Part shown: positions 29,881-41,996 of the stretch, in pieces
Layout of the letters: every line of letters begins with the position of its first letter
Position numbering within the stretch: the stretch's first letter is position 1
From: Ruminococcus sp.
GTDB taxonomy: Bacteria > Bacillota > Clostridia > Oscillospirales > Ruminococcaceae
Direction: 5' to 3'
Length of the DNA: 43,646 nt
NCBI GenBank assembly: GCA_017484095.1
Contig: JAFUTU010000022.1
Coordinates: 1-43,646, forward strand
Translations under genes and position numbers: made by a program
The notes under the pieces: model-generated
Seen by the model: the letters and a program-made list of their open reading frames with translations, nothing else
What the model was told of the DNA's origin: nothing
Database searches by the model: none

Positions 29881-31195
29881 TTTTTCCGCAAAGGTACTGA
29901 GTACCATAAAATCATTTGATATGTGCAATAAGAGCGAGCGCTTGCTTATCTGTCTTTCGGGCGGAGCTGATAGCGCTGCGCTCCTTTTGTGTTTAAAAGA
30001 GCTTGGTTTTGATATATGTGCCTGCCACGTAAATCATCAGCTCAGAGGTGCTGAAAGTGACCGCGATGAGCAGTTTTGCAGACAGTTATGCGAGAAGCTT
30101 GACGTCAGATTTGAAAGCATAAAGCTTGATGTTACTGGCTATTGTAAAGAAAACGGCCTTTCAGTTGAGCTTGGTGCAAGAAAGCTGAGATATGATTACT
30201 TCTATTCGTTTGATGTTGATAAGATATGCACAGCTCATTCTCTGAGCGACAGCTTAGAGACAACCATTTTTGATCTCGCAAGAGGAACAGGCTTAAAGGG
30301 GCTTTGCGGTATACCCCCTGTCAGGGATAAGATAATCCGCCCTCTGATAGAATGTACCAGAGAAGAGATCGAAGCTTATCTGTCCTCACAGGGACAGGAC
30401 TTTGTGACTGACTCGACAAATCTTGAAGATATTTATTCGAGAAATAAGATACGCCACAATATTATACCTGTGATGAAAAATATAAACAACGGGCTTTACA
30501 GCTCCTACAGCAATACGATAGGCTATCTGCGCGCCGACAGCGATCACCTTGAAGCCGAAGCCGATGATCTGTATGATAAATGCCTGCTTGATAAGGGCTA
30601 TGACTGCAGATTGTTGTCATCATCTCATGTTAGTATCAGAAGAAGAGCAGTTATGCGTATCTTTGACCATGAGGGGATAAAATGCTCATCTGCACTGATA
30701 GCCGACACTGACAGTATAATTCAAAACGGCGGCAGACTTAATATCAGCGGTGATATTTTCGCAGTCTCTTCAAAGGGAGTTTTAACTTTTGGATATTGGA
30801 CTGACCCGAATGAAAAACCGCTGGCTGTCACTGTAGATGAAATGGGAAAATATGTATTTGAAAACAGAAATATCTCGTTTAGTATAATAGAAATGCCGTA
30901 TGATATCGCAAATATTCAAAAAAAATTCACAAATTGTTATATGGATTATGATAAAATGAATGGTGTACTTTTGTTAAGAGGCAGACTTCCTGATGATAAG
31001 ATCAGACTTTGTAACCGTGACTTTAATTCAGATGTAAGAAAGCTCGTTAACAGTGCATTCAGACAAGAGGACAGAAAAAGCGCTGTTTTGATAGCTGACG
31101 GTGAAGGTTTAATATTTGTTGAAAAATATGGTATTGCTGACAGGGTAAAAGTTGATGCTTCGACAAAAAGAGTGCTAGTTTTTGAAATATCATAA
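29873..31195 (+). CDS. tilS: tRNA(Ile)-lysidine synthase
   Basis: TilS attaches lysine to C34 of the CAU-anticodon tRNA-Ile, switching its codon reading to AUA. The 440-residue product has the PP-loop SGGADS at residues 29-34, CHVNHQLRG, CTAHSLSDSLETTIF and a PLIECTREEI segment, followed by the C-terminal substrate-binding domains. ATG 29873 overlaps the dnaB stop by 8 bp and has AGGAGAG upstream. In many Firmicutes tilS is followed by hpt and then ftsH; here hpt is absent and ftsH comes next. Confidence 0.93.
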   Translation: MSDFSAKVLSTIKSFDMCNKSERLLICLSGGADSAALLLCLKELGFDICACHVNHQLRGAESDRDEQFCRQLCEKLDVRFESIKLDVTGYCKENGLSVELGARKLRYDYFYSFDVDKICTAHSLSDSLETTIFDLARGTGLKGLCGIPPVRDKIIRPLIECTREEIEAYLSSQGQDFVTDSTNLEDIYSRNKIRHNIIPVMKNINNGLYSSYSNTIGYLRADSDHLEAEADDLYDKCLLDKGYDCRLLSSSHVSIRRRAVMRIFDHEGIKCSSALIADTDSIIQNGGRLNISGDIFAVSSKGVLTFGYWTDPNEKPLAVTVDEMGKYVFENRNISFSIIEMPYDIANIQKKFTNCYMDYDKMNGVLLLRGRLPDDKIRLCNRDFNSDVRKLVNSAFRQEDRKSAVLIADGEGLIFVEKYGIADRVKVDASTKRVLVFEIS

Positions 31196-40999: not shown

Positions 41000-41066
41000 A
41001 TCGACTTTTAATACAAGATATCGACATAAATAGTCTATATTTTTAATAAATACGCAATATTCGACA
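41000..41066. promoter_or_regulatory. Spo0A-box-like motifs in the regulator's upstream region
   Basis: The 340-bp AT-rich gap between the HD gene and the Spo0A-like gene contains a perfect TTCGACA 0A-box match (41060-41066) and two weaker ones, ATCGACA (41020-41026) and ATCGACT (41000-41006). Their TCGAC cores start at 41001, 41021 and 41061, multiples of 20 bp apart. No gene is seen in this gap. Confidence 0.45.
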
Positions 41067-41127
41067 AAAATCATCAGATTGAATTTAAAAATATATAAGT
41101 GAAATTGTTAAACTAATTTGAAATCGG

Positions 41128-41156
41128 TTGAATTGAAACGATTTATAATGTATAAT
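41128..41156 (+). promoter_or_regulatory. promoter of the Spo0A-like gene
   Basis: TTGAAT (41128-41133) and TATAAT (41151-41156) are 17 bp apart, 31 bp before the ATG, which has a GGAGGAG ribosome binding site. Confidence 0.75.
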
Positions 41157-41187: not shown

Positions 41188-41934
41188 ATGATAACCAAGA
41201 TACTGATCGGGGAAAAGCTATGCAGAACACTGGGATTGAAACAGGTGTTAGAGGACGAAGGGCATATAGTCTGTCTGAGTGATGAAGAGCCCTTTGCGAT
41301 GCTGGAAAGATATTCAGAATGCAGGCCAAACATATTAGTGATATCAGCGCTGATGAAAGACAGGCACACATTTCTGATGCATATAAATAAGAGCTTCGGT
41401 CATACTTACACGATCGTTTTATCACCTGCTCATGCGGTAAACGGGATAGATATTGCAGGAGAAGGAGTTGACAGGATATTGACTGAGCCTTATACAGCTG
41501 AGGATATTTGCAAGCTTATTCATTCTGACAGTAAAAACGGAAGAGTTGAGCGCAGTTATTCAGACAGCGACAATGAGAGCATTGCAGGTGTTCTCAAAAA
41601 GCTTGGCGTCGCTCCGAACTATACAGGCTATAAATATCTGATAGATACGGTCGATCTTATCATAGCAAAAGGCGGCGATACAGTCAGTCTTACAAAGCTT
41701 ATTTATCCTGCCATCGGTCAAAAATACAATGTTACTGCAAACTCGGTAGAAAGAAGCATAAGAACGGCTATCAAAAACACATGGCACAATTCTCCGGAAT
41801 CAGAAATAATGAAATACTTTGGCGTTTATGCACTTACTCCGGGATTCAAGCCGTCAAACAGCAGATATGTATATGCGCTTGCAGATTATCTTAGAAACCA
41901 CTGCAGGAGCAGCTCAGAGAGCATAAAGATCTGA
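41188..41934 (+). CDS. Spo0A-like regulator with degenerate receiver domain
   Basis: The 248-residue product has a C-terminal half (about 125-245) matching the Spo0A DNA-binding domain: GVAPNYTGYKYL, LIYPAIGQKYNVTANSVERSIRTAI with the recognition helix, and KPSNSRYVYALADYLR. The N-terminal half aligns with a response-regulator receiver but has lost its chemistry. The acidic pair is Gly8-Glu9, the phospho-accepting Asp is Ser53 (ILVIS where Spo0A has VLVLD), and the conserved Lys is replaced in ILTEPY. It therefore cannot be phosphorylated in the usual way. It stands alone, away from the spoIVB-spo0A locus typical of spore formers, with its own promoter and terminator. It may be a paralogue or a diverged Spo0A. 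Confidence 0.85.
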   Translation: MITKILIGEKLCRTLGLKQVLEDEGHIVCLSDEEPFAMLERYSECRPNILVISALMKDRHTFLMHINKSFGHTYTIVLSPAHAVNGIDIAGEGVDRILTEPYTAEDICKLIHSDSKNGRVERSYSDSDNESIAGVLKKLGVAPNYTGYKYLIDTVDLIIAKGGDTVSLTKLIYPAIGQKYNVTANSVERSIRTAIKNTWHNSPESEIMKYFGVYALTPGFKPSNSRYVYALADYLRNHCRSSSESIKI

Positions 41935-41945
41935 TAATATATCCG

Positions 41946-41978
41946 AAAAAGCCCCAGCTGATGATGCTGAGGCTTTTT
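41946..41978. terminator. bidirectional terminator
   Basis: AAAAAGCC-C-CAGC pairs with GCTG-A-GGCTTTTT around a 7-base loop. It lies between the convergent Spo0A-like gene and the isomerase-family gene and can serve both. Confidence 0.85.
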
Positions 41979-41996
41979 ACTTGTACTGATACTTTA

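Follow-up and report, generated by a model that had tools for sequence, protein, structure and literature searches.

A second Spo0A-family protein without the receiver phosphorylation residues, and a 0A box upstream of its gene, in Ruminococcus

Spo0A is usually treated as a single protein that is on when phosphorylated. The 0A box has the core TGTCGAA, of which G2, C4, and G5 are contacted, and the isolated Spo0A DNA-binding domain bypasses phosphorylation (PMC3485338, in the part available). Aspartate-less receivers (ALRs) have been described in RitR and ChxR; the available main text of that paper uses the name Spo0A twice, for Asp-to-Glu mutants and in the title of a reference (PMC4395418). 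Among open-licence PMC papers, we found no Spo0A paralogue with a dead receiver. The genus considered here, Ruminococcus, lives in gut and rumen and has a patchy record of spore formation: in the available portions of the respective papers, sporulation is reported for R. bromii (PMC5814915), and Ruminococcus albus 7 appears among non-sporogenous strains, with several genes missing (PMC3533761). We find spoIVA above cut-off in 28 of 29 genus genomes, including the one studied here, and spoIIE-like and spoIIAA-like matches in all 29, but below the NCBI cut-offs.

The stretch of DNA analysed (the window) comprises 43,646 nt of contig JAFUTU010000022.1 from Ruminococcus sp. GCA_017484095.1, read on the forward strand. 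Near its end lies an ORF with an ATG start and a GGAGG 5' of the start codon, encoding the protein that we refer to as the paralogue. The locus has the following features.

41000-41006, minus strand: weak box AGTCGAT, 20 bp beyond the near-consensus box and in the same orientation; by sequence, no counterpart in RUG11219
41020-41026, minus strand: near-consensus box TGTCGAT, 40 bp from the perfect box and in the same orientation; by sequence, broken in RUG11219
41060-41068, minus strand: perfect 9-base 0A box TTTGTCGAA, part of TTTTGTCGAA at 41060-41069; sequence match
41128-41156, plus strand: promoter-like TTGAAT-17-TATAAT, sigma-70/A-type by consensus match only; both hexamers kept in RUG11219
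41188-41934, plus strand: Spo0A-family paralogue, 248 aa; ORF, PF08769 match, homologues P0001-P0007
41188-41541, plus strand: receiver half, about residues 1-118; predicted CheY-like (beta-alpha)5 fold, phosphorylation residues absent
41344-41346, plus strand: codon of Ser53, at the place of the phospho-Asp by alignment
41584-41892, plus strand: Spo0A_C DNA-binding domain, with VERSIR at the recognition helix
41946-41978, plus strand: likely terminator, a predicted hairpin and T-run between the paralogue and the convergent gene

A Pfam scan of the 248-aa protein places PF08769 (Spo0A_C) at residues 133-235 (E 5.9e-26), and against TIGR02875, the NCBI equivalog model for Spo0A, the protein scores 79.6 bits, below the cut-off of 200. 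Its nearest relative, 89% identical, comes from "uncultured Ruminococcus sp. isolate RUG11219." The gene stands alone between a divergent upstream neighbor, which has a weak HD-domain match (18.8 bits, under its own cut-off of 22), and a convergent fucose-isomerase-like gene. The region behind it, 41935-41990, folds with -16.9 kcal/mol (z -5.2), in contrast to a simple terminator scan, which found none behind the gene. A profile search identifies two Spo0A_C proteins in the genome. The first-pass annotation, which was made from the window sequence, had placed the gene away from the usual spo0A locus and proposed a search for a second, canonical Spo0A. Both points hold up: unlike the paralogue gene, which has no spoIVB neighbor, the gene for the canonical protein (L001) adjoins a spoIVB-like gene (identified by eye), and L001 has all five receiver residues. 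The word "orphan" proved too narrow as a description of an isolated case, since non-canonical copies, at least one per genome, occur in all 28 genus genomes that have Spo0A_C.

When the paralogue is aligned with the canonical Spo0A of its own genome, the D-D acid pair becomes E-K, Ser53 occupies the column of the phospho-Asp, Leu78 (with Ser79 beside it) that of the Thr, and a Glu that of the Lys ("LTEP" versus canonical "LKP"); the phosphorylatable receiver set of acid pair, Asp, Thr, and Lys is absent. No receiver family matches the protein in Pfam at E ≤ 1, nor do any of the seven orthologues have such a match. A CheY-like receiver fold is nonetheless predicted from a structure model and fold matches, and the model puts Ser53 at the end of beta 3. 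An intact receiver site elsewhere in the N-terminal half was looked for, and with neither the orthologues nor the position of Ser53 pointing to one, none was found. The earlier proposals of a dead phosphorylation site and of a Spo0A-type DNA-binding half are thus borne out, but Ser53 is not conserved in the clade: among the seven orthologues the position is Ser in two (the window protein and P0002), Asp in three, and Glu in two, reading S, S, D, D, and E in the five window-type genus genomes. Because the RUG11219 relative also has Ser at this place, the substitution is not an error of one genome, and with the frame open in all five genus orthologues, we rule out a sequencing error or frameshift. 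The Asp and Glu residues at this position would favor a receiver still switched by phosphorylation through other chemistry or another residue. We consider this very improbable, as the acid pair and Lys are absent in all seven orthologues (with single acids nearby in some) and none of the 23 residues in the four active-site loops is invariant.

Invariant positions across the seven orthologues number 24 of 118 in the receiver, compared with 45 of 109 in the DNA-binding half. In the stretches 65-75 and 93-97, at the opposite end of the receiver by strand order, 9 of 16 positions are invariant, and the largely invariant patch consists of H65, I66, N67, H72, Y74, T75, D95, R96, and I97. We infer from this predicted placement that the end may have been conserved as an interface or as a site for a ligand. 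Sensing through cysteine, as in RitR, was also considered and rejected, there being no cysteine invariant among the seven proteins. Relative to the RUG11219 gene, dN/dS is 0.047 for the receiver and 0.013 for the DNA-binding half, with dS saturated at 1.9 and 0.9, and the receiver changes faster (dN of 0.088 versus 0.012); for a second pair, L082/L080, dN/dS is 0.18 and 0.19, respectively. That the paralogue is a decaying copy without function, as the loss of the catalytic residues and the faster receiver might suggest, is hardly credible in the face of the open frames, the low receiver dN/dS in both pairs, and the kept promoter and box. The receiver half is under purifying selection, which makes a new function more probable than a domain that is simply dead.

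Paralogues of this kind occur throughout the genus. Spo0A_C matches number 75 in 28 of 29 genomes, 27 of them canonical by score (152-158 bits) and 48 not; two draft genomes depart from the pattern, G018 with no canonical match and G025 with no Spo0A_C match. We sorted the 48 non-canonical proteins by length, surroundings, and a domain tree of 111 columns in which many forks are open, and distinguish 5 of the window type (in G000, G019, G024, G007, and G016), 14 of full-length class 2, 7 with the DNA-binding domain only, 4 of class 2b (with a different, short N-terminus), 17 of class 3, and one poor match, L108. The seven domain-only proteins (L076, L079, L081, L084, L088, L089, and L102) measure 111-139 aa by ORF and have no receiver; L102 falls on a long branch among class 3 in the tree. 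The residues D, D, D, T, and K are all kept in 26 of 26 aligned canonical proteins, leaving aside L014 with its broken frame at the N-terminus, and the full set is found in none of the 36 aligned full-length paralogues (5 + 14 + 17), the 48 less the domain-only and class 2b proteins and L108. A profile comparison aligns the window type with class 2 over 230 columns, nearly the whole length (E 2e-41), and no genome has both, for which reasons the two probably form one paralogue lineage.

Beyond the genus, the search covered 194 other genomes of the family, drawn from a larger group, and 88 of them have at least two Spo0A_C matches. With the combined window-type and class-2 profile, non-canonical proteins rank above every canonical one in G188, G218, and G140 among the matches listed; the two of these that we examined, L145 and L147, are by eye without the acid pair and Lys, and L147 has Asp at the phospho-site. 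Distant matches also occur in 15 of 50,697 phage records, and a phage origin was considered and dropped: the one record examined of the 15, MT835737 (L174), is a piece of bacterial chromosome that carries a spoIVB-like gene and a canonical-looking spo0A (both named by eye).

The class 3 genes (L083, L091-L101, and L103-L107) form a separate observation. All 17 lie less than 1 kb from sigG, or from the N-terminal piece where sigG is split; what follows is often a ylmC/ymxH-like gene and rpsB-tsf (identified by eye). Their phospho-site is Asn in 10 of 17, and the recognition helix reads VEHSIR, not VERxIR, in 8 of 17. In the window genome sigG is unbroken, although its score of 335 bits is below the cut-off of 457, and a ylmC/ymxH-like gene comes next after it with no class 3 gene between. 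In 8 of the 29 genus genomes sigG is split into an N-terminal and a C-terminal piece (G004, G009, G025, and G003, at L115, L116, L118, and L119, and also G018, G013, G005, and G019); in the five with both pieces on one contig, the distance between them is 6-9 kb and both are on the same strand. At all four loci examined, the N-terminal piece directly adjoins a large serine recombinase-like ORF, and two such ORFs that were scanned have Resolvase, Recombinase, and Zn-ribbon Pfam matches. The cargo at L118 is NAD-salvage-like, with isochorismatase and NAMPT/NAPRTase families. The arrangement looks like a skin-type element inserted in sigG, with putative excision.

The recognition-helix pattern E-R..R is invariant in all seven orthologues of the paralogue and in all aligned full-length class-2 relatives (12 of 14 aligned). 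Of the presumed base-contacting residues of this helix, VER..R is kept in the paralogue, and the place of His218 of Spo0A has Thr. The perfect box TTTGTCGAA is one of three co-oriented boxes spaced 20 and 40 bp apart, of which this box alone has a counterpart in RUG11219; it lies 128 bp before the start codon, upstream of the promoter-like element. Such boxes are over-represented before these genes: TTTGTCGAA occurs within 300 bp upstream of four of the five genus orthologues, compared with 5 of the 222 control genes (Fisher P 6e-6), and TGTCGAA within the same distance of 7 of 14 class-2 genes, compared with 16 of 222 (P 7e-5); the species are related and hence not independent as samples, which makes both P values too small. 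Among the 222 control promoters, all taken from these same loci, are those of divergent neighbors, and the control is conservative because these share the intergenic region. In the remaining window-type gene, L075, the corresponding position of the alignment reads TGTCGAT. TGTCGAA is absent upstream of the seven domain-only and four class 2b genes and occurs before 2 of 17 in class 3.

Spo0A dimers reportedly occupy head-to-tail boxes at a distance of about 10 bp (1lq1). A repeat of GTCG at exactly 10 bp is found in 7 of 19 window-type and class-2 promoters (2 of 5 and 5 of 14) versus 6 of 222 controls, and each of the eleven other spacings from 8 to 19 bp in at most one of the 19; the paralogue promoter in the window lacks this tandem. 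Both the 0A box before the paralogue orthologues and this half-box enrichment in the promoters of the paralogue group are new here. A possible four-site operator precedes L080: between about 216 and 180 bp ahead of the start, two forward and two reversed boxes form one symmetrical block, with a step of 10 bp inside each pair.

Genome-wide, TTTGTCGAA shows no excess, with 20 sites found against about 18-19 expected from scaled shuffles; a reversed-pattern control of the box counts gave far more matches (40 and 96), which we took to reflect composition and left unused. Of the 20, only the 41060 box lies outside ORFs of at least 60 aa and also precedes an ORF start by no more than 350 bp. A regulon defined by perfect 9-mer boxes is ruled out, as 17 of the 20 sites are inside ORFs of that size and TTTTGTCGAA occurs only three times. 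One further TTTTGTCGAA, at 31159-31168 (minus strand) of the window, falls within the last part of an ATP_bind_3 (PP-loop) ORF, and an ftsH-like gene follows after about 110 bp.

Similar boxes precede spo0A itself. TGTCGAA is present in 9 of 25 spo0A promoters of the genus (27 less L014 and L019, with only 12 bp upstream), and the spo0A promoters of all five window-type genomes have a conserved block with TGTCG and TGACGAT, so spo0A and the paralogue may answer to one kind of site. The paralogue could then be only a target of canonical Spo0A~P, its own DNA site being different and its role that of a downstream regulator outside the Spo0A regulon. The block, which canonical Spo0A may read, is in keeping with this, as are the identity of only 24% between the paralogue (residues 18-235) and its own genome's canonical Spo0A and the Thr at the His218 position. 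The invariant recognition-helix pattern speaks against it, and we regard it as unlikely. A weaker counterargument comes from the published Spo0A targets, where a perfect box is rare (before spoIIE in 1 of 28 genomes, with locus L203 left out as too short, and before spoIIAA in 1 of 29, with the longest central ORF defining each start and some doubt over several spoIIAA frames), so that the perfect box is not a simple mark of the Spo0A regulon; this argument is weak because Spo0A targets often have no perfect box, according to the part of PMC3485338 available. The shared family, the like boxes before both genes, and the constrained receiver half would also suit a brake, with the paralogue either rivaling canonical Spo0A for 0A boxes or forming pairs with it via the receiver. 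Receiver-less relatives exist, which argues against receiver pairing being needed across the whole group, and a brake strikes us as decidedly unlikely.

With slightly better than even confidence, we favor a phosphorylation-independent offshoot of Spo0A that likely binds 0A boxes, its own included, and so would regulate its own gene and tune the Spo0A regulon. Having no aspartate phosphorylation residues, its receiver would make it a regulator independent of phosphate; it would putatively bind 0A boxes, among them the perfect box that precedes its own promoter, and, we infer, autoregulate through that box and take a new input through the conserved receiver end away from the old active site. Several observations count against this offshoot reading: the 41060 box could serve canonical Spo0A~P alone, given the boxes in spo0A promoters; the window promoter has no 10-bp tandem and TTTGTCGAA no genome-wide excess; the 7-mer is absent before the domain-only and class 2b genes and rare before those of class 3; the paralogue has Thr at the His218 place; and three of seven orthologues keep an Asp at the phospho-site. 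More tentatively, the genus may possess a two-regulator sporulation circuit, in which a second, phosphate-blind, autoregulating Spo0A with a new input surface at the receiver end would set the threshold of the true one. If true, a conserved second Spo0A of this kind with its own 0A box would alter models of sporulation entry and extend the concept of aspartate-less receivers to the Spo0A family, and the receiver-less relatives in the genus would offer a natural comparison.

Overall, the paralogue combines features of several known systems. With Spo0A (TIGR02875) it shares the C-terminal Spo0A_C domain and the predicted layout of receiver and DNA-binding halves, but it differs in its missing phosphorylation residues, its score, its locus, and its place beside an intact Spo0A; because neither the equivalog cut-off nor the phosphorylation set is reached, it is not Spo0A in the strict sense. 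By analogy, we think that it may work like an aspartate-less receiver regulator, sharing with these a predicted receiver fold and the loss of the phospho-Asp, yet three of seven orthologues have Asp there. RitR is an OmpR/PhoB-type regulator. Such an output is described for ChxR in the available part of PMC4395418, whereas the paralogue has a Spo0A_C output. The C. difficile spo0A promoter has a 0A box (PMC3485338, in the part available), as does the region before the paralogue gene. Truncated Spo0A proteins of human-gut phages, as portrayed in the accessible part of PMC10294663, are likewise a Spo0A DNA-binding domain freed from receiver control. These phage proteins have no receiver, however, whereas the paralogue is chromosomal, has its full length (248 aa, the N-terminal half being under constraint), and is retained across related species; the seven domain-only proteins found in the genus appear to resemble the phage proteins more closely than the window paralogue does.
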